Below are positions 25,223 through 46,227 of a stretch of DNA of 64,000 nt, piece after piece. The notes beneath the pieces were generated by a model. It saw only the letters and a list, made by a program, of their open reading frames with translations. It was not told where the DNA came from and did not search any database. Positions within the stretch are counted from its first letter, which is position 1. Every line of letters starts with the position of its first letter. The translations under genes and the position numbers were made by a program. The stretch is taken from NCBI GenBank assembly GCA_018266835.1, contig JAFDZP010000005.1:310001-374000 (forward strand), read 5' to 3'. This DNA comes from Bacteroidota bacterium. GTDB taxonomy: Bacteria > Bacteroidota > Ignavibacteria > Tepidaquicellales > Tepidaquicellaceae.

Positions 25223-25244
25223 TTGTTAGGATTTTGTTAGGATT
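25223..25244 (+). promoter_or_regulatory. Tandem 11-bp direct repeat, copy 1
   Basis: Two exact copies of TTGTTAGGATT in tandem, followed by a T-tract and a TATATATAAAG box starting 12 bases downstream. The identical pair occurs before four other T9SS cargo genes here (29616, 39390, 43116, 46206). The 11-bp period and place just upstream of a TATA-type -10 resemble direct-repeat operators of OmpR/PhoB-family regulators; that link is inference. If transcription starts here, the leader to 25601 is about 330 bases. Confidence 0.8.
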
Positions 25245-25261
25245 TTTTTTTAATTGTATAT

Positions 25262-25600
25262 ATAAAGTAATATACGGCGAAAATTTTTCCATAAACAGAA
25301 ATCCTGTTGTTCGCTTTTAAGCAAACTTAATTCGGGCAGCGGGATTTTTTAAAACCGACAAATCATTTTTTTCAAATGATTCAGATATATCAAACCTCCA
25401 ATTCCTGATATTTATATCTAAATCATACAAATTAATGTTAACTTTTTAGTTTCATTAAACTATATCTTTCATCCATTTCCGTAAACAAACATTTTAAAAA
25501 TTTTAATTAATTTCTAACTACTCCTTACATACAAATACATATTATTAAAGACTAAATTTTTTTTTAAAGAAATATTTTATTTAACCTCTAAAGAAAAGAA
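25262..25600 (+). other. Long untranslated leader
   Basis: AT-rich, with no convincing small gene. The inverted repeat AATCATTT/AAATGATT (25361-25381) is the clearest structure; GATATATC- and GATATTTATATC-type palindromes follow to 25420. AACCTCTAAAGAAAAG precedes the start codon. Confidence 0.45.
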
Positions 25601-28600
25601 ATGAAAAAAATCTTAGTACTTTTAGCTCTGGTATTGTTTATGACCACTAACGGTTATTCACAATATCTTACACAAGATTTCGAAGGCGCATGGTCAGGCT
25701 CACCTGAAGCACCTTCGGGCTGGACACAATCCAGACAAGTTTTAATCGGGAATGGTATTCCTGACGGTATTGGAACAACTTCCGGTGATAAAGACTGGCA
25801 AAAGAATACCAATACAGGAACTGCAACCTGGTCATTGACTCCGGGAACTCCGGGAACAATGCCAAACTCCGCTATCTCAGGTACAGGCGTTGCCTGGCTT
25901 CAGACAAGAGACTTTGGCGGCTCGGGACAAAACTGGGGCTCAAGAAGACTTGAATCCCCTTCCATAAATCTATCATCTTCAACTTCTCCGTATTTAAGAT
26001 TCTGGATGTTTAACTCAGACGGAAGTACATCTTTGCATATAAGAGTAGTAGGTTCTTCAGATGGCGGTACAACATGGCTTAACATTCAGCAGATTACACC
26101 GAACTTCACTGCAACGACTGTAACATCTGCTACTCCGTGGTCAAGAATTACCGTTGCCATACCTGCTGCTTTCAGAACGGCAAATATGAAAATCGGTATT
26201 GAAGTTGGTTCACCATGGGGAACAAATAACATGTTCGTGGACGATGTTTCAGTTGAAGAATATACACCTACAACCATTACATCTACAGGTGCAGGCGGTT
26301 TATGGGGAGATGTTGCAACATGGGTAGGCGGCGTAGTGCCTTCTTCTGATAACAACGTTGTTATCGCTTCCGGCGCAACTGTAAACCTTAATGTAAATAT
26401 AGCAAGATGCCAAAACTTACAGGTTGACGGTATTTTACAATATAACTCAACAACCACTACAATATTATTACAAACCTTTGGTGACTTTACAGTATCGGCG
26501 ACAGGAACTTATAATTCATTTAGCGGAGCAACAGGTAAAAGAACATACATAGGCGGTAATATAAATAACGCAGGTACAATTAACTTTGGTATCTCTGCAA
26601 CTTCTACTTCGGAAGCCGCTATGATTTGGCTCGGCTACGGACCTTACACATTTACAAATACAGGAACAATAAGCTTTAGTAAAATAAATACAATCTGGTG
26701 CGCAGTTACACAGGGAGTTACTTTCAACTCCCCTGTTGTAAACACATTCAGATTTGTATTAGCATTAGGTACAGTAAATCCAAACGGAAATCTTACACTT
26801 GGAAGCTCTGCATCTAACACAACGATGACAATCGAGAGATTAAAAGGTTCATTTACATCAGCTCCTACATTTGGCGCAGGTGTAACAAGAAGTGTTTCAT
26901 ATCTTGACGGAACAGGTGTTACTAGTACTCTGGCAGTACAGCCTTACACACCAAGCAAAGAAACAATTTCACCCGGTGAAGAAGTTGAACTTATTACCGG
27001 AGTTAGAACGGTTGCCGGTACCATGATTGTTGCTACACATGGAAGGCTGCAGCTTGCTTACCCGCTTACAGTAGGTACTGCAACAACAGGTGCTTTGACA
27101 TTAACAAGAGGTATTATAATGACTGATGCTGTTAACATATTAAGGACATCGGCATTTTTTGCACCGGGTGCAGGAACAGCACCAAGTACTGCAACTCCAT
27201 CTGTAACACATGGATGTTATGTTTCAGGTCCTATGAGAGTGGATTTCCCTACAACAACTGCATCAAGAAATTTTGCATTGGGTTCAGGAACGAGTTATAA
27301 TGATTCTATTCCAACATCAAACGTTCTGAAAACAGTTGTAATGGCTACAACAACTGCATGGAGCGCTAGCACATCTATTACAGGATCAATAGAAGCAAAA
27401 CCAACAGGTTCTGTAGTTGGTCCTTTACAGGGATTAATGGGTACAAGAAGTTACAGAATGAATTTGAACGGCGGTTCAGATATTCCGACAAACTCAACTA
27501 TAGCTTTAATAGGAAACAATTATAACTATGGTACAGGCGCAGGAAGCGACAGCTTACTTGGTAATCTTCAAAATTTATTTGTTGCTCAGTCAACAACAGG
27601 AACAGGAAGCTGGACTGTAAGATCAATAACAAGCGGCACCGGTTCATTCACTGCAAATACAAATTACACAAGAACTACAGCAACAGGCGCTCCGGGACCA
27701 ATATCTCCTCTTGCAACAAACGGTGAATACTTCTGTTTTGCAACAGATGCTTCATCTGCACCTAATGTAGGTCCCCAATCAATATCTCCATCAGGAAGTT
27801 CGTTTTATCCAAACGGAACAACTAATATTCCTATGACGGGAGTAATCATTAATTCAGGGTTATCTGCAACAACAAATCCTGTAACAGTTGTAAGACAAAT
27901 TATCGGAACAGCTTACATAAGTACAACAACTGTACCTGCAGGATTGGGAGTAAGTGCAACAGCAAATACAACTTTTGCTGATTTTACAGGTTTCACAACC
28001 GGAGTAACTTATCAGATCAAAGACTCAGTTTACATGGTTGGTGACGGAAGCCCTTCAAACGATACTTTATCAGCATTCTTCACACCGAATATTGCAAAGA
28101 AAATGCTTATCATCTGGAACGACCAGCCAAGCAGAGACTCGCTTATTATCCATTTGAACAATTCAGTTTATGCATCTCAGTATGATGTTGCTCCAACTTC
28201 AGGCGCATTGCCAAATGCAGCGCTCTCAAACTGGAAAACAATCTTTGCTCTATATGCAAGTGCTGCTAATATCAGCGCTATTACAAATTCAAGAGATTCT
28301 CTGAAAGTATGGCTTGACGGTTCTACAGGACCAAGCGATAAGAGAAGTCTTTTAATCTTTGGAAATGACTTAGGATATCAGTTAGACCCGAGAAGAAATA
28401 CATCTGCTACAGCAGCAGATACAATTTTCTACAGACAATACATGCACGCTCAATACTGGGCAGATGACTGGATTGATGCATTCACAGCAGCAGATAGTAC
28501 AGTTAAAGGAACTGCTTCACCATTTCTTTCAATCACAGGTCAGAGAATAAATGACCCGTATCCGGATTGCGTAGCACCTGCTACGTGGAATAACGGTACA

Positions 28601-29386
28601 GGTACAACCACAGGTATTTTGATTCCGACTACAGAGTCCGGTGACGGCGACTCTTGCGCTGCAGTCAGCTATGTCGGACCTACTTACAATATGTTCTACG
28701 GTACAAACGTTTATAAGAGTTATGTGCCTACAGTTACAGGCTTAGCTTCTCCGCAAGGCGCAATGATAAATCAGATTATTCAGTTCGTACAGCAGAATGA
28801 AGGTGTCGCTCCTGTTGAGCTTGCATCATTCACTTCATCTATCGATAAGAGAAATGTAACTTTAAGATGGAGTACAAATAACGAAGAGAACAACTCAGGA
28901 TTTAACATTGAAAGAAGAATTGCAGGAACAAACGAATGGACTAAAGTCGGCAACGTAACCGGCGCAGGAAATTCAAACACTATTAAGAACTACAGCTTTG
29001 AAGAAAGAAACCTTGCTACTGCAAGATATAACTACAGACTAAAACAAATGGACTTCAACGGTAACTTCAAATATTATGACTTAGCAAACGAAGTTATTAT
29101 CGGAGTGCCAAGCAAATTCGATATTTCACAAAACTATCCGAATCCTTTCAACCCGTCAACAAAGATTAATTTTGACTTGCCATTCGACAGCAAAGTACAA
29201 ATTAAAGTCTTTGATATGACAGGAAGAGAAATGTATCAGATAGTTAACGAAACAAGAACTGCAGGTTATTACACAGTACAGTTCAATGCTTCAGCTTTAG
29301 CAAGCGGTATTTATTTCTACCAGATCAATGCAGCCGGTGGAAATCAATCGTTTGTAAAAACTATGAAGATGGTTCTTGTAAAATAG
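25601..29386 (+). CDS. Large secreted multidomain T9SS protein with GATase-like domain
   Basis: A 1261-residue exported protein with a signal peptide at about 1-20. An N-terminal jelly-roll resembling cleaved-adhesin/choice-of-anchor J domains (QDFEG...GWTQS...MFVDDVSVEE) covers about 22-220. A stretch like a G8-type beta domain (LWGDVATWVGGVVPSSDN) starts near 230. About 830-1065 is a flavodoxin-like block (MLIIWNDQPSRDS, LLIFGNDLGYQLDPRRN, FYRQYMHAQYWADDW) also present in the gene at 46286; I compare it cautiously with glutamine-amidotransferase-like domains of secreted proteins. The Fn3-like module (PVELASFTS...YRLKQ) and a type A sorting domain (KKM-type end, MKMVLVK) finish it. It is preceded by the tandem-repeat operator and followed by a terminator. 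No enzymatic assignment is made. Confidence 0.85.
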   Translation: MKKILVLLALVLFMTTNGYSQYLTQDFEGAWSGSPEAPSGWTQSRQVLIGNGIPDGIGTTSGDKDWQKNTNTGTATWSLTPGTPGTMPNSAISGTGVAWLQTRDFGGSGQNWGSRRLESPSINLSSSTSPYLRFWMFNSDGSTSLHIRVVGSSDGGTTWLNIQQITPNFTATTVTSATPWSRITVAIPAAFRTANMKIGIEVGSPWGTNNMFVDDVSVEEYTPTTITSTGAGGLWGDVATWVGGVVPSSDNNVVIASGATVNLNVNIARCQNLQVDGILQYNSTTTTILLQTFGDFTVSATGTYNSFSGATGKRTYIGGNINNAGTINFGISATSTSEAAMIWLGYGPYTFTNTGTISFSKINTIWCAVTQGVTFNSPVVNTFRFVLALGTVNPNGNLTLGSSASNTTMTIERLKGSFTSAPTFGAGVTRSVSYLDGTGVTSTLAVQPYTPSKETISPGEEVELITGVRTVAGTMIVATHGRLQLAYPLTVGTATTGALTLTRGIIMTDAVNILRTSAFFAPGAGTAPSTATPSVTHGCYVSGPMRVDFPTTTASRNFALGSGTSYNDSIPTSNVLKTVVMATTTAWSASTSITGSIEAKPTGSVVGPLQGLMGTRSYRMNLNGGSDIPTNSTIALIGNNYNYGTGAGSDSLLGNLQNLFVAQSTTGTGSWTVRSITSGTGSFTANTNYTRTTATGAPGPISPLATNGEYFCFATDASSAPNVGPQSISPSGSSFYPNGTTNIPMTGVIINSGLSATTNPVTVVRQIIGTAYISTTTVPAGLGVSATANTTFADFTGFTTGVTYQIKDSVYMVGDGSPSNDTLSAFFTPNIAKKMLIIWNDQPSRDSLIIHLNNSVYASQYDVAPTSGALPNAALSNWKTIFALYASAANISAITNSRDSLKVWLDGSTGPSDKRSLLIFGNDLGYQLDPRRNTSATAADTIFYRQYMHAQYWADDWIDAFTAADSTVKGTASPFLSITGQRINDPYPDCVAPATWNNGTGTTTGILIPTTESGDGDSCAAVSYVGPTYNMFYGTNVYKSYVPTVTGLASPQGAMINQIIQFVQQNEGVAPVELASFTSSIDKRNVTLRWSTNNEENNSGFNIERRIAGTNEWTKVGNVTGAGNSNTIKNYSFEERNLATARYNYRLKQMDFNGNFKYYDLANEVIIGVPSKFDISQNYPNPFNPSTKINFDLPFDSKVQIKVFDMTGREMYQIVNETRTAGYYTVQFNASALASGIYFYQINAAGGNQSFVKTMKMVLVK

Positions 29387-29493
29387 TTATAACTATTTAG
29401 TTGTCAGTTGCCGGTAAAATGGCAATTCATAATTCTAAATTCTGAATTCATAATTAAAAACTCCTGTTGGTGAAAACTAGCAGGAGTTTTTTT
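29341..29493 (+). repeat. Duplicated gene end, copy 1
   Basis: The last coding bases, the 3' untranslated region (TTGTCAGTTGCCGGTAAAAT onward) and the terminator are repeated almost base for base at 35351-35505, after the next gene. The non-coding part differs by only a few bases, so the copying is recent or maintained by conversion. Confidence 0.85.
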
Positions 29494-29495
29494 TT
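29456..29495 (+). terminator. Intrinsic terminator, CTCCTG family
   Basis: Stem AAAAACTCCTG/CAGGAGTTTTT around TTGGTGAAAACTAG, followed by a T-run. The same stem occurs after five other genes in the window. Confidence 0.9.
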
Positions 29496-29615
29496 CGCTA
29501 ATTGATAATTGATAATTGATAATTGCAGGATTTACAGATAATTTTTATTATAATATTTGTTATGTTTTTAGCTGATTTCTGAACGATTTTGCCTGTAAAT
29601 AAAAGTTATCAATTT

Positions 29616-29637
29616 TTGTTAGGATTTTGTTAGGATT
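29616..29637 (+). promoter_or_regulatory. Tandem 11-bp direct repeat, copy 2
   Basis: Two exact TTGTTAGGATT units, a seven-T tract, then a TATCTATAG box 16 bases after the repeats. It lies 573 bp before the start of the beta-helix gene, so the leader is very long and contains the three-hairpin repeat array. Confidence 0.8.
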
Positions 29638-29685
29638 TTTTTTTAATTTGTTGTATCTATAGAAAAAGTAAAAAGTTAATTTAAT

Positions 29686-30181
29686 CTCTAAGAAAAAAAA
29701 ATAATCCCGTACAGCATTTTTGAAAAACCCCAAATTCTTTCAAAAATTTTACCGGATTATTTTTCATAAACAAAAAAAGTAAATTTCATTTTCCGGAAAT
29801 TCTAACTTGAGCCGGCGCTCAGTAAGATTTTAATGCGAATAATACTGTAAAGTATTATAGCTATGAAGAGCTGATTTTTTTCTCCTCTAAGAAAAAAAAA
29901 TAATCTTGATAAATCTTTTTTATAAGTACACCAAAATTCTTATAAAAAATTTACTGTCTATTTTTTTTTACATAATCAAAATTTAAAATAACAAACAGGA
30001 CTAAATATCTCATAATTCTTTCTGTAACGGCAAGTTAATGCGATATTTTTACTGTCAACAATACTGAAAAGCACTGATTTGTTTTTTTTCCTCTAAGAAT
30101 AAAAAATAATCTTGATGAATCTTTTCTGAAAGAACCCCAAAATTCTATCAGAAAATTTACTGTATAATTTTTTTCTTAAAC
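29686..30181 (+). repeat. Array of about 200-bp leader repeats with conserved-loop hairpins
   Basis: Two full units and a half unit start with CTCTAAGAA(A/T)AAAAAATAAT at 29686, 29885 and 30091 (periods 199 and 206). Each has a hairpin about 30 bases in: arms 29717-29725/29738-29746 (TTTTTGAAA), 29916-29926/29939-29949 (TTTTTTATAAG, 11 bp perfect) and 30122-30132/30145-30155 (TTTTCTGAAAG, one mismatch). Stem sequences differ but pairing is kept, while the 12-base loop stays close to AACCCCAAAATT. The second halves share TTAATGCGA and a GC(A/T)CTGATTT end. I read this as a structured leader RNA upstream of the beta-helix gene; function unknown. Confidence 0.7.
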
Positions 30182-30209
30182 AATCATTTAAAAAACAAAA
30201 AAAAATCTT

Positions 30210-33200
30210 ATGGCTAAACCCTTTAAGAAATTGGTTTTTCTCGCAGTGCTTTTAGCGTTGTTCTGCACGAAAAACTCCTTTGCCCAGGTAGATGTATCTA
30301 CCGGCGGCGGACCAACAACGTACACGACATTAAAAGCAGCTTTTGATGCAATTAATGCCGGTACGCACACAGGTGCAATTACAATTAGTATCACTGCTAA
30401 CACAACAGAAGCAGGTCCTTGCGTTTTAAACTCAAGCGGCGCAGGTTCTGCCTCTTATACATCTGTAAATATTCGTCCCACCACAGATGGCGTTACAATT
30501 TCGGGTCCTACAACTACAGGTCGCGGATTGATTGAATTAAAGGGTGCAGATAATGTTACCATTGACGGAGATAATCCGAATACAGGCGGCACAAACCGCA
30601 ACCTTACAATTACAAACACTGCTGCTGCAACAATTACATATACATCGGTCATCCGAATCTGTAATGCTGCAACAGTAGTAACAAGTTCAGATAACAATAT
30701 ATTCAGGAATTTAATCCTTAACGGAAGTGCAGCAGACAGAAACGCTGCTGCAAATACAAGCGTTACAGGCAGCGAAAATACCACATTCGGTATTTACGTC
30801 GGCGGTAACGGCGGGGCTTCAGCTACAGACGCTCCGACAGCTATCACAAGCGTTACAACAAATACAGCTCCTACAGGAACAACTGTAAATGCTTTACTTG
30901 TAGATAACAACACAGTGATGGCATGCGCAAGAGGTATCGTATTCAACGGTGCCGCAGTTGGTGTTTCTACAGGTGTTACAATTTCTAATAACATTATTGG
31001 AGACCAGAGCGCGCAGTCTTTTGCTTATCCTCAGACAACACCAACAAACACAGTTTATACAAAAGGTATTTATGCTTCAGGTACAACTGTACTTACAATT
31101 ACCGGAAACTCAATTAAAAATATCTTTTCATACGTAGCTGTTGGTACTACAAACGCAGCAGGTATAGATGTTGTAACTGCAATCGGTACAGGTCCCAATA
31201 CAATTTCAAACAATACTATAGCAGGTGTTGTTGTTAATAATGCAGCGACAACTTCTCCTGCAAGAGGTATCTCTCTTGCAAGTTCTGCCGGTGTTTATAC
31301 AGTAGCCGGAAATACAATTTCTAATGTTCAGAATAACTGCGGAAGCACAACTCAGACAAATCAGCCGACAGGTCTTTATATTTCAACCGCAGCAGCATCA
31401 GCAACTGTTGAAAGAAATATTGTTTCACAGGTTTACGATAGAAATGCAGGAACATTCGGTGTTGCAGGTGTATTCCTTGCAGCAGGAAACAATATTACTT
31501 TCAGAAACAACATGATTTATGATATCAACCAGGATATCACAGGCGGTGCAGCTTTCTCAACCCAATACGGTATTATTGGTTTAAGAATTTTAGGTACAGG
31601 CCACAAGATTTATTATAACTCAATTCATCTTTCAGGCGCAATGCTCGGTACTTCTACAACGACCATTATGACTGTATGCGCTACTATTAATACAACTTCC
31701 GTCACAGGCGTTGATATGAGAAACAATATTTTCTCAAACGTAATGACAGGCGGTACAACTTCAATTGCTCACGTTTCATTATTTCTTCCATCGGCAGCAA
31801 CGAGCACATTGAACTTAACTTTAAATAACAATGCTTACTTTTCAGGCTCAGATGCTTCAAGACAAGGTATCTTACAGGTCGGAACTACAGCAGGTTCAGG
31901 TTTCTATTTAGCTTCTAACTTTATTGCCAGTTCAACAACACCTTCAACAAACTCAAGAAGCTACACAAGCACTTTATCTGCCGCAGGAACAAACGATAAT
32001 GCATCAATTGCTTCAACCTCTGCAGCACCATTTACTTCAGCAACAGATTTGCACATCCCTGCTTTAACAGCCACACAGCTTGAATCAGGTGGTGTAATAG
32101 TTGCAGGTACAACAACAGATTATGATAATCAGAACAGATATCCGAATGCAGGATATCCTGATAATCCTTTAACTCCTGCTACTGCTCCTGATATCGGCGC
32201 AGATGAATTTGCAGGTACAATAGTAGATCTGACAGCACCTTCTATAGTTTATACAGCATTAGGCAATACTGCAAGCACAGCAGACAGAACTCTTACTGCT
32301 GCAATATCCGATGCTTCAGGTGTAGCAGGCGGAGCAAACGGTCCGAGATTATATTACAAAAAATCATCGGAAATAACATATCATTTTGATGACGCTCCAA
32401 TTGTTGCAGGTAGCAACTATACATTTACAATAAACGCAGCTGCAATGGGCGGCTTAGCTGCTAACGATGTAGTTCAATATTATGTTGCTGCTCAGGATGT
32501 AAACGCAAACGTAGCTACAAGCCCTGCCGGCGGTTCAGGAATAAATCCTCCCGGAACAGTAGCCCCGCTTGCTCCAAACTCTTATATAATTGCAGCAGCA
32601 CCTATGAGCGGAACTTACACAGTAGGTCTTGCTTTATTTAACAGAGTTACAGGTAAAAATATTTATTCAGTAGAAAAAGTAAGAACAGTTACAAGAGAAG
32701 TTTCAGTAACTGAAGATGCAGCAGTTGTAAATAAATCTGATAAAGAAGCATTTACAGCATCATTAAACGCTCCGAATGTAAAAACACAGACAGTTACCGT
32801 TGATGAAAAATATTCAGTGTTAATGGAAAACGGAACAGAATACAGAGGTTCATTATATCATGAATTATCTCAGTCTGACAGAAGCTCAAACGGAATTACT
32901 TCAGATATGGCAGGTGTTTATGCAACTATCACAGCAGCAGTTGCAGATGTAAACTTAAGAGGAGTATCAGGCAATACAGAGCTATCTTTAACAGATGCTT
33001 CATATCCGTCTGAAACATTCCCTATTACTTTCAACATTGGAAGTGATGCACAGCCAAGCGCTTCTGCAACAATTACAATGAAACCTGCGCTTGGTGTATC
33101 ACCAACCATTTCAGGTACATTAGCATCGAATGCTTTAATTAAAATATTCAGCAGCTATACAATTATAGATGGTTCAAACACTGTAGGCGGCTCAACAAAA

Positions 33201-35396
33201 GATATGACAATTACAAACATATCTGCTACATCACCGAGCGTACTTCAGATAGGTTCAAACGGAACAACTTACAATACAGCTTCAACTGTAAAAAATTGTA
33301 TTCTGATTAACGGTGTAAATACTGCTTCATGTTTAGTTGTCGGCGATGCAGGTACACTTGGAAATCCGGGTTATTTTGCAAACACAACAATCCAGAATAA
33401 CTCAATACAAAAATCTTATATCGGAATGTACATCAATGCAAATGCATCAAGTACATCATATGCAAATGTTAACGGTAATGACCTTACAACGTCGGGTGCA
33501 AACGCTATAAGATTTACAGGTATCTACATGCAGGCTGTAAACGGCTCAGTAATTTCTCAGAACAGCATTGCTAACTTTGAAACTACTTCTTCGGAAGACG
33601 ATAACGGAGTCTGGCTTGCAACAGGCACAATAAACACAACTGTTGAAAGAAATTCAATTTATACGTTAAAATATACAGGTACAAATGGATACGGGGCTCA
33701 CGGTGTTCAAGTCAGCTCAGGAACAACTTCATGTAATATTACAGTAAGAAACAACCAGATAGCCGATTTATCCGGTGACGGCTGGGTAAATACCACACTT
33801 GGTGATAATACACATGGTATTTATGTTTTCGGAACAACAACAGGCGTAAAGCTTTATAATAACTCAATTAACTTCAACGGTAACACTCTTAACCAGACAG
33901 GTGCAATGTCATACGGTATTACACTTGGTACAGGTTCTACCGCTGATATAAGAAACAACGTTATCTCTAATAACTTAGGACTCCTTGGAGCAACCGGTTT
34001 AGGTTCTACATGTATATTCTTACAAACAGATGCTACTCAGTTAGAAGCTTCTGATAATAATGTATACTATTGCAGCCCGACAGGTTCAGGTGTTAAAGAT
34101 ATTGCAAAAGTAGGAACAACAGATTACTCTACACTTTCTGCTTATGCTACAGTAACAGGAAAAGATAAAGGCTCATTCAACGGCAATCCGTCATTTGTAA
34201 ATTCCACAAGCGGCAGCATTGATATTACAAATGCAAACAGCTGGGTAGTAAACGGAAACGGTTATCCCGGGTTAGTAACTAATGATATCAACGGTACAGC
34301 AAGGTCAACATCTTTATCAACAGGTCCTTGCGATGTTGGTGCTTACGAAATTACTCCTTCAGTACCGGCTCCTTCGGCAACACAAACAGGTACAATCGGA
34401 GCAGGACAGACAACATCATGGTCAATATTCGGAAAGACTTTTGCATCCATTACATGGGGTGCAGCAGGTACTTATCCGGGTTCAATGACAGCAGCATTTA
34501 ATTCAGGCGCAACACCTCCAAATCCTCCTGTAGCTGCAAAATACGGTTACGGTTACTGGACATTAACACCTGATGTACAGCCTTCAGGCGGCGCAACTTA
34601 TGATATCACAGTATTCTTCAGTGATGCTCAGACAGGAACAATAACTGCTCCTGCCACAAACTTAATACTTGCTAAATATGATGGAGCAACATGGACAGAT
34701 TATCAGCCCGGCGTTGGCGCAGGTCAGTCAAATCTGAACTATGCAGCAAAATCAGTAACAGTAGCAGGCTTAACATCATTCTCAAGCTTCGCATTAACAG
34801 ATAAAGATGCACCGTTACCTGTTGAGCTTTCATCTTTCACATCAGCAATAGATAAGAGAAAAGTAACTCTTAACTGGTCAACAGTTTCAGAGGAAAACAA
34901 CTCAGGATTTGATATTGAAAGAAAGTTAAGCGGTACAGAAAATACATGGAGTAAAGTCGGTAACGTAGCAGGCGCAGGTAACTCAACAACTGCAAAAAGC
35001 TACAGCTTCTCCGAAAACAATCTGAACACAGGAAAATATAACTACAGACTGAAACAAATGGATTACAACGGTAACTTCAAATATTATGACTTATCAAATG
35101 AAGTTATAATCGGAGTTCCAAGCAAATTCGATATTTCACAAAACTATCCGAATCCTTTCAACCCGTCAACAAAGATTAATTTTGACTTGCCGTTCGACAG
35201 CAAAGTTCAGATTAAAATTTATGACATGACAGGTAAAGAAATGGCGCAGATAGTTAATGAATCAAGAACTGCAGGTTATTACACTGTTCAGTTCAATGCT
35301 TCAATGCTTTCAAGCGGAATTTATTTCTACCAGATAAATGCAGCAGGCGGAAATCAATCGTTTGTAAAAACTATGAAGATGGTTCTTGTAAAATAG
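30210..35396 (+). CDS. Giant secreted parallel beta-helix protein with T9SS sorting domain
   Basis: A 1728-residue protein, the largest in the window. The signal peptide ends near residue 25 (FCTKNSFAQ). Two right-handed beta-helix regions, about 30-620 and 900-1330, are built from short Asn-rich coils (NxTIxxNxI, NNxIYD, VERNSIY), the pattern of pectate-lyase-like/polymer-binding helices. A beta-sandwich (about 670-800, DLTAPSIVYTALGN...) sits between them. The Fn3-like module and a type A sorting domain ending MKMVLVK close it. I cannot identify catalytic residues, so adhesion and polysaccharide cleavage are both possible. The start follows a run of AAAAAATCTT with no clear Shine-Dalgarno. 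Its leader carries the tandem-repeat operator and the hairpin array. The 3' end matches the upstream gene closely. Confidence 0.87.
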   Translation: MAKPFKKLVFLAVLLALFCTKNSFAQVDVSTGGGPTTYTTLKAAFDAINAGTHTGAITISITANTTEAGPCVLNSSGAGSASYTSVNIRPTTDGVTISGPTTTGRGLIELKGADNVTIDGDNPNTGGTNRNLTITNTAAATITYTSVIRICNAATVVTSSDNNIFRNLILNGSAADRNAAANTSVTGSENTTFGIYVGGNGGASATDAPTAITSVTTNTAPTGTTVNALLVDNNTVMACARGIVFNGAAVGVSTGVTISNNIIGDQSAQSFAYPQTTPTNTVYTKGIYASGTTVLTITGNSIKNIFSYVAVGTTNAAGIDVVTAIGTGPNTISNNTIAGVVVNNAATTSPARGISLASSAGVYTVAGNTISNVQNNCGSTTQTNQPTGLYISTAAASATVERNIVSQVYDRNAGTFGVAGVFLAAGNNITFRNNMIYDINQDITGGAAFSTQYGIIGLRILGTGHKIYYNSIHLSGAMLGTSTTTIMTVCATINTTSVTGVDMRNNIFSNVMTGGTTSIAHVSLFLPSAATSTLNLTLNNNAYFSGSDASRQGILQVGTTAGSGFYLASNFIASSTTPSTNSRSYTSTLSAAGTNDNASIASTSAAPFTSATDLHIPALTATQLESGGVIVAGTTTDYDNQNRYPNAGYPDNPLTPATAPDIGADEFAGTIVDLTAPSIVYTALGNTASTADRTLTAAISDASGVAGGANGPRLYYKKSSEITYHFDDAPIVAGSNYTFTINAAAMGGLAANDVVQYYVAAQDVNANVATSPAGGSGINPPGTVAPLAPNSYIIAAAPMSGTYTVGLALFNRVTGKNIYSVEKVRTVTREVSVTEDAAVVNKSDKEAFTASLNAPNVKTQTVTVDEKYSVLMENGTEYRGSLYHELSQSDRSSNGITSDMAGVYATITAAVADVNLRGVSGNTELSLTDASYPSETFPITFNIGSDAQPSASATITMKPALGVSPTISGTLASNALIKIFSSYTIIDGSNTVGGSTKDMTITNISATSPSVLQIGSNGTTYNTASTVKNCILINGVNTASCLVVGDAGTLGNPGYFANTTIQNNSIQKSYIGMYINANASSTSYANVNGNDLTTSGANAIRFTGIYMQAVNGSVISQNSIANFETTSSEDDNGVWLATGTINTTVERNSIYTLKYTGTNGYGAHGVQVSSGTTSCNITVRNNQIADLSGDGWVNTTLGDNTHGIYVFGTTTGVKLYNNSINFNGNTLNQTGAMSYGITLGTGSTADIRNNVISNNLGLLGATGLGSTCIFLQTDATQLEASDNNVYYCSPTGSGVKDIAKVGTTDYSTLSAYATVTGKDKGSFNGNPSFVNSTSGSIDITNANSWVVNGNGYPGLVTNDINGTARSTSLSTGPCDVGAYEITPSVPAPSATQTGTIGAGQTTSWSIFGKTFASITWGAAGTYPGSMTAAFNSGATPPNPPVAAKYGYGYWTLTPDVQPSGGATYDITVFFSDAQTGTITAPATNLILAKYDGATWTDYQPGVGAGQSNLNYAAKSVTVAGLTSFSSFALTDKDAPLPVELSSFTSAIDKRKVTLNWSTVSEENNSGFDIERKLSGTENTWSKVGNVAGAGNSTTAKSYSFSENNLNTGKYNYRLKQMDYNGNFKYYDLSNEVIIGVPSKFDISQNYPNPFNPSTKINFDLPFDSKVQIKIYDMTGKEMAQIVNESRTAGYYTVQFNASMLSSGIYFYQINAAGGNQSFVKTMKMVLVK

Positions 35397-35505
35397 TTAT
35401 CAGTAATTAGTTGTCAGTTGCCGGTAAAATGGCAATTCATAATTCTAAATTCTGAATTCATAATTAAAAAACTCCTGTTGGTGAAAACTAACAGGAGTTT
35501 TTTTT
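35351..35505 (+). repeat. Duplicated gene end, copy 2
   Basis: Near-exact copy of 29341-29493 covering the last codons, 3' untranslated region and terminator; it has a 10-base insertion-type difference just after the stop codon (CAGTAATTAG against AACTATTTAG) and a compensating A-for-G change in the terminator stem. Confidence 0.85.
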
Positions 35506-35506
35506 T
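35467..35506 (+). terminator. Intrinsic terminator, CTCCTG family
   Basis: Stem AAAACTCCTGTT/AACAGGAGTTTT followed by T-run, 70 bp after the stop codon. Confidence 0.9.
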
Positions 35507-35651
35507 GTATTCCTGTTAATTGTTAATTACTAATAATTTCTGATTTGCGGAGCAGGCAGAAAGCCTGATGCAACATATTAATAGTAATAGGCTGAAAAAA
35601 ATATAGCGCAGTAAATGATTTTTAACATGAAGAAATAACAATAATTTATCT

Positions 35652-35679: not shown

Positions 35680-35938
35680 CCCTTAGTTTTTGCAGTAGTT
35701 TATGACATAAAAAAGTTCTGCTCTTAATGTAAATTAAATTACAGCAATTGGAATTTTTTTACTAAGGCTTTTGTATTTTAGATATAGGTATAAACACTTA
35801 TATTGTCGTTAATTTTTTAAAAAAACTAATGTGAATTTATTTTAATTCGGACTACATTGCCTGATACTGCTTAACCCCCATAAAGCATTGTATTTAGAAA
35901 TGAAATGGATTCCAATAAACTTTTATTGGGAGATATTT

Positions 35939-38647: not shown

Positions 38648-38676
38648 TTTCAAGATACGAGTTTCAAGTTATTCAG

Positions 38677-38713
38677 ACTCCTGTTGGTGAAAAACCGGCA
38701 GGAGTTTTTTTTG
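38677..38713 (+). terminator. Intrinsic terminator, CTCCTG family
   Basis: Stem ACTCCTGTTGGT/ACCGGCAGGAGT (two G-T pairs) with GAAAA loop and T-run, 30 bp after the GH81 stop. Confidence 0.9.
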
Positions 38714-38924
38714 TCTTAAATGAAGGAAATTGACTTTGGAAATTGGGTACGTTCTATCTTATAAGCAAGTGTTTAATACAATTTTTGCCGATTATCACTT
38801 AAGAATAATAGCCAATTTATAAATATTTTGCACCTTTTAACTAAATAATTCAATTTTTCCATCCGATTTTAGCCAATAAATTTCTTTGCCAATGCTCATT
38901 TTAGTTATTAATTTAGTCTAAGAA

Positions 38925-39003
38925 AAAGGAAATACCGCTGTTTATGGTTCGCTTAGGGGGAGCGAGTTTTTTAGTTGCACCGGCGGTATTAAATTTTCCA
39001 CAT
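38925..39003 (+). promoter_or_regulatory. Candidate structured RNA before two miniprotein genes
   Basis: An outer stem AATACCGC/GCGGTATT (38931-38938 with 38983-38990) encloses an inner hairpin TCGCT/AGCGA (38949-38965, loop TAGGGGG), with GGAAA and TTTCC further out. It is preceded by TCTAAGAAAAA, like the leader repeats at 29.7-30.1 kb. It lies 55 bp before a miniprotein start codon. I do not recognise it as a known riboswitch class. Confidence 0.45.
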
Positions 39004-39057
39004 AACAGAATCTCACCATTTTCTTTGTGGAAAGATTAAAAAACTAAAATAAATAAG

Positions 39058-39219
39058 ATGCGAAAGTTAATTGTCTGGATTTTAATGTCCTTCATCTCCT
39101 TGATTTATTTTGCATTCAATGTTGTACTTTGGATTAAAGAGTTTAGTTTTAAGTCCCGTTTTAAAAAAATTGGTAATTCAATTAAGAATTTTTTTGAAAC
39201 ACTCACTCCCTACTTTTAA
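39058..39219 (+). CDS. 53-residue membrane miniprotein
   Basis: A short open frame (MRKLIVWILMSFISLIYFAF...) with one membrane span at about 4-27 and a basic cytoplasmic tail (FKSRFKKIGNSIKNFF). It follows the candidate RNA structure and precedes a second miniprotein by 33 bp, in a stretch of about 900 bp otherwise without genes. I do not know its family. Support is the start-to-stop fit, membrane topology and the paired neighbour; codon use looks similar to nearby genes. Confidence 0.5.
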   Translation: MRKLIVWILMSFISLIYFAFNVVLWIKEFSFKSRFKKIGNSIKNFFETLTPYF

Positions 39220-39252
39220 AGTAATATTTAAAAACTTTTAAAATTTTCAGCC

Positions 39253-39360
39253 ATGAAAACACTTTTAAAAGAATTCATTCAGATGCTCTTCCCTATTACT
39301 ACTTTGTTCCTTCTCTATGTTGTATTTTATTTAGTTATCAACAGCATTGCAAAACACTAA
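39253..39360 (+). CDS. 35-residue membrane miniprotein
   Basis: Frame MKTLLKEFIQMLFPITTLFL... has a short amphipathic N-terminus and one membrane span at about 12-31, ending NSIAKH. Size and form resemble small accessory subunits of membrane complexes, but no partner complex is encoded nearby. It could be the second gene of a two-miniprotein operon. It ends 30 bp before the tandem-repeat operator of the protease gene. Confidence 0.45.
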   Translation: MKTLLKEFIQMLFPITTLFLLYVVFYLVINSIAKH

Positions 39361-39389
39361 GAAAAATTCCGGCTCCCTTTTTCTTTAAA

Positions 39390-39411
39390 TTGTTAGGATT
39401 TTGTTAGGATT
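39390..39411 (+). promoter_or_regulatory. Tandem 11-bp direct repeat, copy 3
   Basis: Two exact TTGTTAGGATT units, then CTATTAGATTTATTACAG as a weak -10 region. It is 144 bp before the subtilisin-like protease start. Confidence 0.78.
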
Positions 39412-39554
39412 TCTATTAGATTTATTACAGAAATAGTTTTTTGAAGGAATTTCCCGGCACTCAGCCCCCATTGTCCGTTCAGGATGTATTAAACTACTCT
39501 ACAATTTTCCGGATTAAATATTTTTTTAATTTATTATAAACTATTATTCAAAAC

Positions 39555-42500
39555 ATGAAAAGTATTTTTATTGCTTTATTTTCTCTTATGTTCATCAGCG
39601 CAGCTTTGCCGCAGGATTATTATTATTACTTTGGAAAAAAGATTGAACTCAACAGACGTGAAGATAAAGCCGTCATTGTTACAAATGAGCTTGGACAGAA
39701 TAAAGCCTCAATGGAAAACGAAATTAAATCGGTTCTTGATGCAGGCGACGAATTAAAAAATTCTTACAACAACACATATGAAGTAATTTTCAAAAATAAT
39801 TTCGGAGCCCAAAAAGTTCAGAACTTTGTAAACAGATTTGCGGGAAGAGAAAACTTAATAAAATTTATTGCTCCTGCTTACTACACTGATAATCTGAAAA
39901 TAACAATTATCTGCGCAGATGAATTTATGGTAAAGCTTAAAAGTGAAAATGACAGAAACAAACTTGATCTGCTGAACATTCAAAACGGAGTTCAGATAGT
40001 TGAAAGCTTCCCCGGAAGCAGAATGTTCAATATGAAAACATTCAACGGTAACTCTAAAACTTCACTGGAGCTTTCCGATATTTACTTAGCAACCGGACTA
40101 TTTGAATACGCAGAGCCGAATTTTATTTATCCTGATTACTGCTTACTTAATTTTACACCCAACGACCCGTTATATACTTCACAATGGCATTTGAATAATA
40201 CATCACAAACAGTTACTCCAAACCCCGGCGGATATAACGGAGTTGACTCAGCCACTTACAAAGGAATTACCGGCTCTGATATGAAAGTTAATCTTGCATG
40301 GAATTTTACTACAGGAGATGCAAGCCTTGAGCTTGGAGTTGTAGATACAGGAATCGATTCGACACACCCTGACCTGCGCTTGAACTTACTTGCAGGATAC
40401 GACGGAGCATATAATGTAAACACCGTGCCAAGAGATTCCAACGGACATGGAACATGTACAGGCGGACTGGTAGCAGCAAGCGGTAACAACGCATTGGGTG
40501 TAACAGGAATTGCATACGGATGTAAGCTGCGTTCATACAGAATTTTTAACGGCGCAGGCTCTGCTGCAAACTCTTACATAACAAGAGTATTCCAGAGAGC
40601 AAAAACAAACGGTGCAGCAGTATTAAGCAATAGCTGGGGAGGCGGTTCACCTGCATCATCAGTTTCAAATGCAATTGATAGCTGCGCACTTTACGGCAAC
40701 AGCGGTAAGGGCTGCGTAATATTATTTTCATCAGGGAATGAAGGAAGAAATCCCCCGTCATATCCATCTTATTTAAGGAACGTTGTCTGTGTCGGCGCTT
40801 CAACAGCATCTGACCAGAAAAAAGCTCCCGGAAATGCGCAGCAATTCTGGTGGGGCGGCAACTACGGAAGCGCGATTCAGTCAGACGGCTCATCATCTTA
40901 CTTCGGAGATATTGACTGCGTGGCACCGACAATTACAGTTACAACTGATATTCAGGGAACAGGTGGTGATAATACTGCTGCAGGAACAGCCGGAGATTAT
41001 TATTATGCATTTAACGGAACGTCATGCTCATGTCCTAATGCAGCCGGTGTTGCAGGGCTTATATATTCAGTAAATACTTCGCAGACTGCTGCACAGGTAA
41101 AAGATGCGTTATTAAGAGGCTGCGATAAAATTGATAACATCAGTTACGATTCTGCTAAAGCATACGGTCAATGGAATGAATATTTCGGCTACGGCAGAGT
41201 AAATGCTTACAACTCGGTAAGACTTGCAGCAGGCGTGGATGTAATTCCTCCGACAATAAAACATGCCAATATAGAGTCAAGCAATTCAACTTATCCTTCT
41301 GCAGTTACAGCTGCAATTACAGATTTAGGCGGCGGAAGTGTTGATAACACTTCACCAAAAGTTATTTACAGAACAAATAAAAATAATGCAGGCTGGTCTG
41401 CATTCGATACTGTTTCGTATAGTTCACTGGCAGGAAGCGTATTCGCATTTAAAATTCCGGGCTACGGATGGGAAACACAAGTGCAATATTATTTAACAGC
41501 AAAAGATAACAGCGGAAATACAGCATACTTCCCTATTCACGCGCCGGATACAACAAATTTATGTTACTATGCAATTGGAAATATTCAGAGTGTTACACAG
41601 AAAATAACGGGACCGACTTCAATTCCGACATCATCGTATGTTTACACCGGAACAACAACATTTGCATCATTTAAAATCTTAAAAACAAAAGTTAGATTAT
41701 CATTAAGACACACAAGAGTCTCAGATATAAACGTTGCTCTTGTAAGTCCGTTGACAAGCATGAACGCAACCTTTGGTATGAAGTGTCTTTTCAGTGAAAA
41801 CAGTTCCGGCACAACTACAGGAATTTCAAATCCAACAATAACTGATTCCGCTTCATCATTCTGGAACGGGTTAACTCAACCATATACAAGCGGACTTGTA
41901 AAGCCGGATTATTCTTTTGCGGGATTTAACGGAACAAGTTCGGCAGGAGCATGGAAGCTATTAATTTATGATGGCGTTACAGGTACAGGCGGAACTTTTG
42001 ATAGCTGTTCAATAACTTTATATAAAACTTCAGGAACTACAAGCCCTTCAGCAGGATTTAATACTGCTTCAGATTCCATCTGTACATTTAACGGAACACA
42101 AACAGATACGATTAATTATTATTTAAAAAACAGAGGCACTGCATCACTTACAATTTCAGGCACAACTTTCAGCGGGACATATGCATCCAAGTTCTCATTG
42201 ATTTCATCTCCTGCTTCAATTGCTGCGGGAGACAGCGGGCTCTTTAAGATAAGATGTAATCCGCTTGCACCAAAACCTGTTAAAGGAAATGAACAGCAAT
42301 TTGATAACTCAGAAAACGCAACACTTGATATAACCACAAATGATCCAAGCAAACCAACATTAAAAGTATCGCTGCAGACACCTGACCCGCTGCCTGTAGA
42401 GCTTGCTAACTTTACATCATCTGTAGATAGAAATAACGTAAAGCTAAACTGGACAACTACGTTTGAGCAAAACAATTCAGGATTTGATATTGAAAGAAAA

Positions 42501-42968
42501 TTAGTATCAACTAATGAATGGGTTAAAGTAACGAACATTTCAGGAGCAGGAAATTCAAACACACAGATAAATTACTCATACAGCGATAACTTTATTTCAA
42601 CAGGAAAATATAATTACAGGTTGAAGCAGATTGATTTCAACGGCAACTATAAATATTATGAGCTTGCAAATGAAGTGAATGTAGGAATACCAACACAGTT
42701 CAGTTTATCACAGAACTATCCGAATCCTTTTAATCCTTCTACGAAGATCAATTATGATTTGCCGTTCGATAGCAAGGTAAGCATTAAGATATTTGATTTA
42801 ACCGGAAGAGAAATATCTTCAGTTGTAAATCAGGTGCAGCCGGCAGGTTATTACTCCTTAAATTTCAATGCATCAAATTTAGCAAGCGGGATTTATTTTT
42901 ATTCAATAATAGCTGAAGGCGGGAATAAATCTTTTGTGAAGAGTATGAAAATGGTTTTAGTCAAATAA
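39555..42968 (+). CDS. Secreted subtilisin-like (S8) serine protease with P-domain and T9SS sorting domain
   Basis: A 1137-residue protein. Signal peptide about 1-19; N-terminal pro-region to about 200 (DEFMVKLKSENDRNK...YAEPNFIYPDY is typical of subtilase propeptides). The catalytic domain is about 230-545 with D264 (VVDTGID), H298 (NGHGTCTGG) and S490 (NGTSCSCPNAAGVAG). The Ser motif has SCSCPN where most subtilases have SMATPH. A P-domain (proprotein convertase type) lies at about 680-825 (VRLSLRHTRVSDINVALVSP...GAWKLLIYD), then an ASPM/SPD-2-like beta domain (about 835-945), the Fn3-like module and a type A sorting domain (MKMVLVK end). It probably degrades or processes extracellular protein. 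It is preceded by the tandem-repeat operator and followed by a terminator. Confidence 0.93.
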   Translation: MKSIFIALFSLMFISAALPQDYYYYFGKKIELNRREDKAVIVTNELGQNKASMENEIKSVLDAGDELKNSYNNTYEVIFKNNFGAQKVQNFVNRFAGRENLIKFIAPAYYTDNLKITIICADEFMVKLKSENDRNKLDLLNIQNGVQIVESFPGSRMFNMKTFNGNSKTSLELSDIYLATGLFEYAEPNFIYPDYCLLNFTPNDPLYTSQWHLNNTSQTVTPNPGGYNGVDSATYKGITGSDMKVNLAWNFTTGDASLELGVVDTGIDSTHPDLRLNLLAGYDGAYNVNTVPRDSNGHGTCTGGLVAASGNNALGVTGIAYGCKLRSYRIFNGAGSAANSYITRVFQRAKTNGAAVLSNSWGGGSPASSVSNAIDSCALYGNSGKGCVILFSSGNEGRNPPSYPSYLRNVVCVGASTASDQKKAPGNAQQFWWGGNYGSAIQSDGSSSYFGDIDCVAPTITVTTDIQGTGGDNTAAGTAGDYYYAFNGTSCSCPNAAGVAGLIYSVNTSQTAAQVKDALLRGCDKIDNISYDSAKAYGQWNEYFGYGRVNAYNSVRLAAGVDVIPPTIKHANIESSNSTYPSAVTAAITDLGGGSVDNTSPKVIYRTNKNNAGWSAFDTVSYSSLAGSVFAFKIPGYGWETQVQYYLTAKDNSGNTAYFPIHAPDTTNLCYYAIGNIQSVTQKITGPTSIPTSSYVYTGTTTFASFKILKTKVRLSLRHTRVSDINVALVSPLTSMNATFGMKCLFSENSSGTTTGISNPTITDSASSFWNGLTQPYTSGLVKPDYSFAGFNGTSSAGAWKLLIYDGVTGTGGTFDSCSITLYKTSGTTSPSAGFNTASDSICTFNGTQTDTINYYLKNRGTASLTISGTTFSGTYASKFSLISSPASIAAGDSGLFKIRCNPLAPKPVKGNEQQFDNSENATLDITTNDPSKPTLKVSLQTPDPLPVELANFTSSVDRNNVKLNWTTTFEQNNSGFDIERKLVSTNEWVKVTNISGAGNSNTQINYSYSDNFISTGKYNYRLKQIDFNGNYKYYELANEVNVGIPTQFSLSQNYPNPFNPSTKINYDLPFDSKVSIKIFDLTGREISSVVNQVQPAGYYSLNFNASNLASGIYFYSIIAEGGNKSFVKSMKMVLVK

Positions 42969-42995
42969 TAATTGATAAAAAGTAATTTGTAAAAA

Positions 42996-43029
42996 AAACT
43001 CCTGTCGGGAAATCGGCAGGAGTTTTTTC
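42996..43029 (+). terminator. Intrinsic terminator, CTCCTG family
   Basis: Stem AACTCCTGTCG/CGGCAGGAGTT (one G-T pair), loop GGAAAT, then T-run. Confidence 0.9.
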
Positions 43030-43115
43030 TAACAACAGTTCGATAAATGATATAAAACTGTATTATAAGTGAACATTATCTGCGGAATAAATGGACAAAA
43101 TATTATTCCTTATTT

Positions 43116-43137
43116 TTGTTAGGATTTTGTTAGGATT
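43116..43137 (+). promoter_or_regulatory. Tandem 11-bp direct repeat, copy 4
   Basis: Two exact TTGTTAGGATT units with a TATATAG box 14 bases downstream. The distance to the start codon at 43564 is 427 bp; the stretch between holds no gene I can support. Confidence 0.8.
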
Positions 43138-43501
43138 TTTTTTACTTTTATTATATAGATTTTTTTAACAAAACCTTGAAAAGTTATGTACAAATATTTC
43201 AATTTTAGAATTAAAAAAAACTATCCAAAATCTAACGGAATTCAAAATACTAAAGGACATTTTGTTTTCTTCAAATTCCCCCTCTCGAAATATCTCGCAA
43301 GCTTAGTCTGATTACCAAATACTTTCATTTCTTTTTTACCTGATTCATTTTGATAATGAGATAATTCATTATTGTATCTGCCGATATTATATTTCAATTC
43401 GTTGATACCATTCTGTTAACTGAAGCTCATTTTCATTTCAGGTCAAAAGAACATTTTAATTTCAGCTTTCCAAAATTTTTTATTTACCATACACCATTTA
43501 A

Positions 43502-43520
43502 TTAACGGATATTCCGTTAA
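43502..43520 (+). other. Perfect hairpin just before a start codon
   Basis: TTAACGGA/TCCGTTAA with a 3-base loop, 43 bp before the start of the next gene and about 30 bp before its AAAAAGGAAAC ribosome binding site. It could influence mRNA stability or translation. Confidence 0.4.
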
Positions 43521-43563
43521 AATTTTAAATTTATTATTTAAACTATAAAAAAGGAAACAACAA

Positions 43564-45999
43564 ATGAAAAAGTTACTATTTTTTCTACTATCTATTGTTT
43601 TACTTGGAGCACTAGATTTGAATGCCCAAATTAAACTTCAGGAAGGATTTGAAAACATTACATTTCCTCCAACAGGATGGTCAACAAAAACTATTAGCGG
43701 AACTGTTAACTGGACTAGAAGTACAGGTCAGTTTCATAGCGGTACAGCAAGTGCTTTTATCAACTATGAAACTCCCGGGCACGAAAACTGGCTGGTTACA
43801 AAACAATTCAGCGTAGGTTCAAACGATACATTATCATTCTGGGTACGTAAGCAATATACTACTGATTACGGTGATCATATGGATATTTTGCTTTCAACAA
43901 CGGATACAGCAGTAGCAAGTTTTACAAATAATCTTGCAACAATTGATGTCGGCGCGCTGGCAAACTCAACATGGGTAAATTTTAAATATTACCTTGGAGG
44001 CACATTCAGTGGAAACGTATATGTTGCTTTCAACCACTATGATGTTGACGGTAACGGCTGCTGGTTGGATGATGTACAGGTTGGAAATGCAGTATTGAAT
44101 GACGCAGGAGTATCTGCCTATTCATCACCGCTTCCTCCATTCTGCCCGGGCTCAACAATCAGTCCGACTGTAACGGTTAAGAACTATGGCGAAGCTCCGC
44201 AGACAGTTATTCCTGTTTATTACACTTTAAACGGCGGTGCCCCTGTAGGACCTGTATCAACCGTAGGTCCAATTGCGCAAAACGGTACTGAGAACGTAAC
44301 ATTCACAGGACCTATGGCAGCAGTTGTGAATGCCGGAACAAACACTTTCAGATTTTATACAGTTTTACCCGGTGACCAGGATAATTCAAATGATACAGCA
44401 GTTACAATTGTAAATGTTACTTCAATTTCATCTTTCCCATATTTTGAATCCTTTACAAATCCTGCCAGCTGGACAACAACAGGAACGGCAATGTGGGGTT
44501 CATACGGCGGAGCCGGATTAATCAATCCGAGCGGTGCAACCGGCGATACAGCTGTATATGCAAATTTTTATAACGTATCATCAGGAACAGGAAATCTTGT
44601 TTCACCAATTTTTAATTTTTCCGGTTTAACAAAACCTGTTGTCAGCTTTTATGTTGCCTATCGTTCATATTCAGGAGATGATGATGCGCTGCAGGTACTT
44701 GTTTCTACAGATGCAGGAAATACATGGTCTGCACCTGTATATAGTAAATCAAGATTAAGTACTCCATCACTTTCTACAGTAGCTGATTCTACAGGAGCAT
44801 ATCTTCCAACGGTAAGCTCTCAATGGAGACATGAGACCATTGACCTTACTGCTTACGCCGGACAAAGTTGCGTGTTAATTGCTTTCTCTGCAATTACTGC
44901 TTACGGAAACAACTGCTGGGTTGATGACTTCAGCATTACAAACGCAACTGACTTCCAGACACAAACCATAAATGCTACGGGACCGGTTATATTTACAGGT
45001 TCATTTGATTTAGGAACAAATTATAATCTTACTGCAAATATGACTTCCATAGGACCGGCAGGTGGAAACATAAACTTTGAAAGAAGCAAAACTGCTCCAA
45101 CAACTCTTGTTTCCCCGGAAATTGCAGTGAATGCAGCAGCTACATCTCCAAGCGGCGCAGTATTACAGCCGACTCATGTTTCACCGGACGGATATTACAC
45201 TCTTTCCTATGACTACAGCAATCAGGCAACTTATGATTTGAGCATCGATATTACCGGTTATACAGGAGTAGCAGATGCAGATAAGTTATACATTGTAAAA
45301 AGAGCAGATGCAAATGCTTCCTGGGTTTGCTTAAATACAACAAGAGTAGGAAACGTTCTTACCGCATCAGGAATTACAGGATTTTCACAATTTGCAATTG
45401 CAGGAGATGTAGATAATCCTCTTCCTGTTGAACTTTCATCTTTTACATCTATCGTAAATGTAAGAAATGTAAACTTGAAATGGTCAACTGTTTTTGAACA
45501 AAACAATGCAGGGTTTGACATTGAAAGAAAAGCTGTAACATCTGAAGTATGGACAAAAATCGGAAATGTTTCAGGAAACGGAAACTCTACAATTGCAAGA
45601 AATTATTCTTACTCAGATAATAATCTTCAGACAGGAAAATATAATTACAGATTAAAACAAATTGACCATAATGGAAACTTCCAATATTACGGGCTTGCCG
45701 GTGAAGTTGTTGTTGGTGTTCCAAGCAACTTTGCTTTGAGCCAGAACTATCCAAATCCTTTCAATCCATCAACAAAAATTAATTACGACTTACCGTTCGA
45801 CAGCAAAGTTTCAATTAGAATCTTTGATATGACAGGAAGGGAAATGAGTCAGATAGTAAACCAGACTCAGCCTGCCGGATATTATACGGTGCAATTCAAT
45901 GCTTCATCACTTTCAAGCGGAATTTATTTTTATTCTATAAACGCTGAGGGCGGAAATAAATCTTTTGTGAAGAGTATGAAGATGGTTTTAGTCAAATAA
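43564..45999 (+). CDS. Secreted adhesin-type T9SS protein with two cleaved-adhesin domains
   Basis: An 811-residue protein with a signal peptide at about 1-22. A first cleaved-adhesin/choice-of-anchor J domain at about 24-175 (QEGFENITFPPTGW, HENWLVTKQF, DGNGCWLDDVQVG), a CARDB-like segment at about 178-285, and a second jelly-roll at about 290-465 (PYFESFTNPASWT, NNCWVDDFSIT) follow. A beta segment, the Fn3-like module (PVELSSFTS...YRLKQ) and a type A sorting domain (MKMVLVK end) complete it. The domain type is known from gingipain-haemagglutinin regions and related surface proteins, so binding to polymers or cells is plausible. AAAAAGGAAAC is a ribosome binding site. It belongs to the group with the tandem-repeat operator. 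Confidence 0.87.
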   Translation: MKKLLFFLLSIVLLGALDLNAQIKLQEGFENITFPPTGWSTKTISGTVNWTRSTGQFHSGTASAFINYETPGHENWLVTKQFSVGSNDTLSFWVRKQYTTDYGDHMDILLSTTDTAVASFTNNLATIDVGALANSTWVNFKYYLGGTFSGNVYVAFNHYDVDGNGCWLDDVQVGNAVLNDAGVSAYSSPLPPFCPGSTISPTVTVKNYGEAPQTVIPVYYTLNGGAPVGPVSTVGPIAQNGTENVTFTGPMAAVVNAGTNTFRFYTVLPGDQDNSNDTAVTIVNVTSISSFPYFESFTNPASWTTTGTAMWGSYGGAGLINPSGATGDTAVYANFYNVSSGTGNLVSPIFNFSGLTKPVVSFYVAYRSYSGDDDALQVLVSTDAGNTWSAPVYSKSRLSTPSLSTVADSTGAYLPTVSSQWRHETIDLTAYAGQSCVLIAFSAITAYGNNCWVDDFSITNATDFQTQTINATGPVIFTGSFDLGTNYNLTANMTSIGPAGGNINFERSKTAPTTLVSPEIAVNAAATSPSGAVLQPTHVSPDGYYTLSYDYSNQATYDLSIDITGYTGVADADKLYIVKRADANASWVCLNTTRVGNVLTASGITGFSQFAIAGDVDNPLPVELSSFTSIVNVRNVNLKWSTVFEQNNAGFDIERKAVTSEVWTKIGNVSGNGNSTIARNYSYSDNNLQTGKYNYRLKQIDHNGNFQYYGLAGEVVVGVPSNFALSQNYPNPFNPSTKINYDLPFDSKVSIRIFDMTGREMSQIVNQTQPAGYYTVQFNASSLSSGIYFYSINAEGGNKSFVKSMKMVLVK

Positions 46000-46025
46000 T
46001 ATTTTATTAAAAATAATTTGTTATA

Positions 46026-46062
46026 AAAAGCTCCTGTCGGGAAACCGGCAGGAGCTTTTTTA
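46026..46062 (+). terminator. Intrinsic terminator, CTCCTG family
   Basis: Stem AAAAAGCTCCTGTCGG/CCGGCAGGAGCTTTTT, with one G-T pair, around GAAA. Confidence 0.9.
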
Positions 46063-46205
46063 TTTCAAAATGTACAGTTTTGAAACTCATAATATATATG
46101 GAGTTTGTTCTTCACATAATTTGTTTGAAATTTTGGGTTAATTTTACAAAAGTTGGCTGATTAGTTTTATCAGCAATTTAATTAAAAAATAAACCTATTA
46201 GTTTT

Positions 46206-46227
46206 TTGTTAGGATTTTGTTAGGATT
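46206..46227 (+). promoter_or_regulatory. Tandem 11-bp direct repeat, copy 5
   Basis: Two exact TTGTTAGGATT units followed by TTTGTTTTAGTT and a TATATATT box 11 bases downstream. It lies only 59 bp before the start codon at 46286, which fits a promoter position best of the five. Confidence 0.85.

Follow-up and report, generated by a model that had tools for sequence, protein, structure and literature searches.

A 22-bp box composed of two 11-bp direct repeats in tandem precedes five genes for type IX secretion system (T9SS) cargo proteins in the 64-kb window analysed in this study (C5:310001-374000 of the 4.0-Mb genome of an uncultured Bacteroidota-type bacterium, the source genome, G000), and its sequence features make it very probable that the box is an operator/promoter element defining a T9SS cargo regulon. 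The box is conserved, lies at a nearly fixed distance from a downstream TAnnTT sequence and stands before one class of genes. Its coupling to a single structural class of T9SS cargo, together with its position relative to a Bacteroidota-like core promoter, is the noteworthy feature of this element.

The box (TTGTTAGGATTTTGTTAGGATT, consisting of 2 x TTGTTAGGATT) occurs in five exact copies in the window, starting at positions 25223, 29616, 39390, 43116, and 46206, as given in the initial annotation. The chance expectation was 0 (100 shuffles), no sixth copy was present in the window on either strand with up to three mismatches, and single exact 11-bp units were confined to the five pairs. All five boxes are on the plus strand, and behind each of them we found the large plus-strand cargo gene that had been claimed, with Por_Secre_tail detected in all five products by Pfam. 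Site A (25223..25244) is followed after 6 bp by a TAnnTT-type element (TAATTGTA, 25251..25258), likely a -7/-10 box, and by a gene (25601..29386) for a 1261-aa cargo protein with a signal peptide, a fibronectin type III (Fn3)-like module, Por_Secre_tail, and a weak match to G8. Site B (29616..29637) is likewise followed after 6 bp by a phased TAnnTT-type element (TAATTTGT, 29644..29651) and by the gene for a 1728-aa cargo protein with the Fn3-like module and the sorting domain (30210..35396). Phased TAnnTTTA elements are present after sites C (39390..39411; element, 39417..39424), D (43116..43137; element, 43143..43150), and E (46206..46227; element, 46233..46240), and the genes behind these three sites encode cargo proteins of 1137 aa with a subtilase (S8) domain and a P-domain (39555..42968), 811 aa (43564..45999), and 712 aa (46286..48424), respectively. 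The distances from the box end to the ATG at sites A to E are 356, 572, 143, 426, and 58 bp. The 572-nt leader of the gene at 30210 also contains three copies of CTCTAAGAA(A/T)AAAAAATAATC (29686-30111 of the window), which are spaced by approximately 200 nt and are each followed by similar sequence.

A genome-wide search with one or two mismatches identified five further boxes outside the window (C1:192743, C1:200283, C2:1204020, C3:161656, and C5:214670; 1-2 mismatches each), located 42-220 bp ahead of a gene encoding a signal peptide and a sorting domain. Thus, all 10 boxes in the genome are upstream of a signal-peptide gene with a C-terminal T9SS sorting domain, a distribution that differs from the random scatter that would have argued against a regulon. 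Looser searches of the genome for a half-site plus the AT element yielded nothing above the reversed-pattern control, and matches to single half-site promoters beyond the known sites did not exceed the reversed-control number in the source genome. The listing of sorting domains in this genome comprises at least 150 entries, so that about 10 cargo genes in a total of 150 or more belong to the regulon; even so, cargo genes make up a minority of all genes, which adds weight to the 10/10 distribution of the boxes. The window is itself rich in further cargo genes without a box, which also indicates that the box marks a subset.

This subset is distinguished by the C-terminal build of its products. 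The Fn3-like module preceding the sorting domain was present in all 33 complete motif-driven cargo proteins (32 by pattern and one by eye) versus 22 of the 97 other cargo proteins sampled, which were drawn from the loci around motif sites and regulator genes rather than at random. In the source genome, the module was found in 10/10 motif genes versus 10/42 other cargo genes nearby (p 1e-5); in the relatives, it was found by pattern in 22/23 motif genes, the remaining one being recognized by eye, versus 12/55 others (p 7e-10). The Fn3-like module that had been reported as common to the five genes is therefore not only present but also linked to the box more tightly than is the subtype of the sorting domain. 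As to that subtype, for which an association between expression group and gene-end type had been proposed, we observed enrichment but not exclusivity. The DLPFDSKV-type sorting domain occurs in all five motif genes of the window and in 7/10 motif genes of the genome versus 4/42 others (p 2e-4), whereas three of the five additional boxes drive genes with another subtype, and three box-less genes elsewhere in the genome carry the DLPFDSKV type. A box-less GH81 glucanase gene (35888-38647) located between the motif genes has a nearly identical subtype, DLPFNSKV. The five motif genes (28800-48424 of the window) also have in common an approximately 590-nt 3' coding end that corresponds to the Fn3-like module plus the sorting domain, and their 5' likeness consists only of the box and the AT element, so that constant ends enclose a variable middle.

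The box was searched for in 99 genomes (29 within the family, including the source genome, and 70 outside). With up to one mismatch, it was found in seven genomes, all belonging to the same family; none of the 70 genomes outside the family contained it at one mismatch, and the reversed-pattern control gave no matches at one mismatch in the 99-genome scan. When the search was widened to the variant half-site TTGTTAGAATT and to looser matches followed by the same type of gene, the number of genomes rose to 10, namely the source genome and nine relatives of the same family in which the box or the TTGTTAGAATT variant (TTAGA) precedes the same class of gene. Relatives carrying the box include Bacteroidetes bacterium SZAS-86, UBA9002, Ignavibacteriae HKST-UBA123, and an Ignavibacteria MAG. 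Nearly all boxes in the relatives precede genes for T9SS cargo with a signal peptide, and one (L195) is likely a chance site. Exact matches were also encountered in Bacteriovoracaceae, Verrucomicrobia, Zixibacteria, Spirochaetaceae, and Desulfamplus; these were single occurrences that lacked both the AT element and a gene for a secreted protein, and were taken as chance. In one relative (G024, L163:6102-6167), five tandem half-sites, TTGTTAGAAT(T/A), are followed by the usual TTTTTTAATTT element and stand before a signal-peptide gene. An alignment of 35 sites revealed that the 22 positions are nearly invariant while the upstream flank is random, which argues for selection rather than recent copying. 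Taken with the 10 genomic sites before cargo genes, the retention of the box across genera and the empty reversed control uphold the regulon that had been postulated from the window. No description of the 22-bp motif was found in the literature searched; therefore, we apparently have here an undescribed control sequence conserved within one family, although its kind, a direct-repeat activator site, is known.

The same alignment showed conservation of TTTTA-n-n-TT downstream of the box. Among 47 sites from all genomes, TAnnnT starts at +5 after the box in 34 and at +6 in four, compared with a per-position maximum of 11 in the shuffled control; for TAnnTTTG, all 10 occurrences among the scanned offsets fall at +5. 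The TATA-type -10 box that had been described at a loose distance of 11-16 bp in four of the five window sites thus corresponds to a genuine element, but its spacing is not loose; it is better described as TAnnnT at an almost fixed distance (+5/+6 in 38/47 sites). This TAnnTT(T/A) element resembles the Bacteroidota -7 box, and its sequence and phasing suggest that it is part of a promoter. The assignment stays at this level because TAnnTTTG enrichment could not be demonstrated before the other genes of the lineage, where neither TAnnTTTG nor TTGACA/TATAAT enrichment was detected. The Flavobacterium sigma-A box, TAnnTTTG, is located at -12 to -5 (PMC9723704), and if the element found here is of this type, the 22-bp operator would span approximately -39 to -18. 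At several sites, the preceding gene has a terminator that stops just short of the box, so that transcription of the cargo gene probably begins after it. Nearly identical terminator hairpins (ACTCCTGTTGGTGAAAA..) were also seen after three neighbouring cargo genes (29456-29491, 35466-35503, and 38675-38707 of the window).

These features also bear on the alternative that the box is no operator at all but either works at the RNA level or arose as a side effect of gene duplication. Duplication did take place, as the 3' coding ends of the five window genes are 70-85% identical, and AGGA repeats resemble the motifs bound by CsrA and other RNA-binding regulators. However, at the 5' side only the box and the AT element are alike, the flanks of the box are random, and the box lies anywhere from 37 to 572 bp from the ATG but at a nearly constant distance from TAnnTT. 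In addition, several genomes have the TTAGA variant, in which AGGA is disrupted, and a CsrA-type RNA site was rejected on this ground. We consider this alternative highly improbable.

On the favoured reading of the box as an operator, the following mechanism can be proposed. A transcriptional activator would use the 22-bp tandem as its operator; bound as a head-to-tail dimer, it would contact both 11-bp half-sites from the same side of the helix, at about -39 to -18. The operator would abut a TAnnTT(T/A) core promoter that has no -33 box at the expected place; a -33 TTTG has been described in Bacteroides fragilis (PMC7366714). The bound activator would recruit RNA polymerase, and the subset of T9SS cargo in which an Fn3-like module precedes the C-terminal sorting domain would be turned on together. 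The promoter role of the box, activation instead of repression, and binding of a dimer are inferred from the arrangement of the elements, and the box could be a repressor site instead of an activator site. Among known systems, the PorXY-SigP circuit of Porphyromonas gingivalis similarly provides transcriptional control of type IX secretion, but it controls the T9SS machinery genes via an ECF sigma factor (PMC4800418, PMC7712824), in contrast to the cargo genes and the direct-repeat operator found here. The CGT -10 element of the SigP type was not present at the box sites, where TAnnTT was found instead. A further parallel is Flavobacterium psychrophilum, which has TAnnTTTG as its main sigma box and in which one promoter class is made up of certain T9SS genes (PMC9723704).

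As for the protein that reads the box, the leading named candidate is a NarL/FixJ-type response regulator encoded at C5:523594-524208 of the source genome, although we regard it only as a tentative one. It lies beside a sensor kinase with a periplasmic propeller (Reg_prop, Y_Y_Y, and HisKA_3) and an FG-GAP gene for T9SS cargo whose product contains UnbV_ASPIC and a sorting domain. Every one of the 10 motif-bearing genomes contained a member of its ortholog group (support 100/100), compared with only two of the 19 remaining genomes in the family (Fisher p 3e-6, uncorrected for relatedness). The sensor kinase adjoins the regulator in 11 of 12 genomes, and the FG-GAP gene is adjacent to the regulator in six genomes and within about 5 kb in eight. 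In such a system, the kinase might sense something extracellular and the regulator activate the cargo promoters, a scheme that is conceivable but rather doubtful. Several observations do not fit. In G014, the motif is identical but the recognition helix of the regulator is changed (TVRSHLRN for TVRHHIKN). Conversely, the helix is kept in G004 and G022 within the family and in G041, G042, and G153 outside it, in none of which a convincing motif site was found; sites missed in fragmented MAGs could account for part of this mismatch, because the targets are long and repetitive. Moreover, the box is a direct repeat, whereas NarL-type sites are usually palindromic, and no box was found at the kinase-regulator operon itself. 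An operon-like run at L146:1693-7307, in which a propeller sensor kinase and a NarL-type regulator are encoded together with an FG-GAP/UnbV_ASPIC protein bearing a T9SS sorting domain, places a cargo protein beside a possible sensor and in this respect recalls PorA and PorXY (PMC7712824).

The initial annotation had compared the box with operators of OmpR/PhoB-family regulators. PHO-box-like operators typically have a pair of 11-bp direct repeats close to the core promoter; the PHO box of PhoB/PhoP consists of two such repeats, each with about 7 conserved bases and an AT-rich spacer. The comparison holds for the promoter-proximal 11-bp direct repeat, which is the feature that would favour a reader of this type, but the box found here lies 5-6 bp from the core hexamer, as opposed to about 10 bp for the PHO box, and the distribution of the regulators does not favour an OmpR/PhoB-type response regulator. 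Only two OmpR-type regulators were detectable in the source genome with the Trans_reg_C model, KdpE and a PhoB-like protein. KdpE adjoins the kdp genes and, among the regulators examined, is present in the source genome only. The PhoB-like protein is the only OmpR type common to the motif-bearing genomes, but it does not track the motif, being found also in the motif-free genomes examined, and among these relatives its recognition helix is nearly invariant whether the motif is present or absent. No OmpR-family regulator tracked the motif, and a reader of this family is thus unlikely. A LytTR reader was rejected, the LytTR protein being missing from the majority of the motif-bearing genomes, namely six (G010, G012, G014, G018, G021, and G024).

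We give somewhat less than an even chance to the possibility that the box is read by a winged-helix activator of the SARP/AfsR type that lacks a receiver domain, or by a protein from some other family. If TAnnTT starts at -12, the centre of the 22-bp box would lie at about -28.5. The Trans_reg_C model usually detects SARP/AfsR-like winged-helix domains, and its matches in the source genome are the PhoB-like protein and KdpE only, with no SARP protein among them, a point against a reader of the SARP type within the reach of this model. The afs box in AfsR/SARP promoters of Streptomyces is likewise a 22-bp double 11-bp direct repeat, centred at -29.5 over the spacer/-35 region (PMC10936776), a resemblance in favour of such a reader, but differs from the present box in its sequence, and the core here is the Bacteroidota-like TAnnTT. 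None of the regulators considered fits all of the observations, and comparison of the motif clusters in G000, G001, and G014 revealed no regulator gene common to them. A receiver-only protein and a receiver-GAF-PAS hybrid histidine kinase are encoded at 2139-5803 of the window, approximately 20 kb from the motif cluster. It may also be, though we hold this to be a minority prospect, that a dedicated regulator of an undescribed kind reads an operator fused to the -7 box and switches one cargo build as a class, with the promoter and the secretion-end class co-inherited and the middle of the gene free to change.

Control of the T9SS has been described mainly for the machinery, and the choice among at least 150 cargo proteins is little explained, above all in uncultured Ignavibacteria-like bacteria. 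The nearly invariant operator described here provides a tag for listing regulated cargo from sequence alone, and the 22-bp box is also usable as a DNA bait to fish out its regulator. The coupling of this promoter class to the Fn3-like C-terminal build suggests that the proteins concerned form one functional set.
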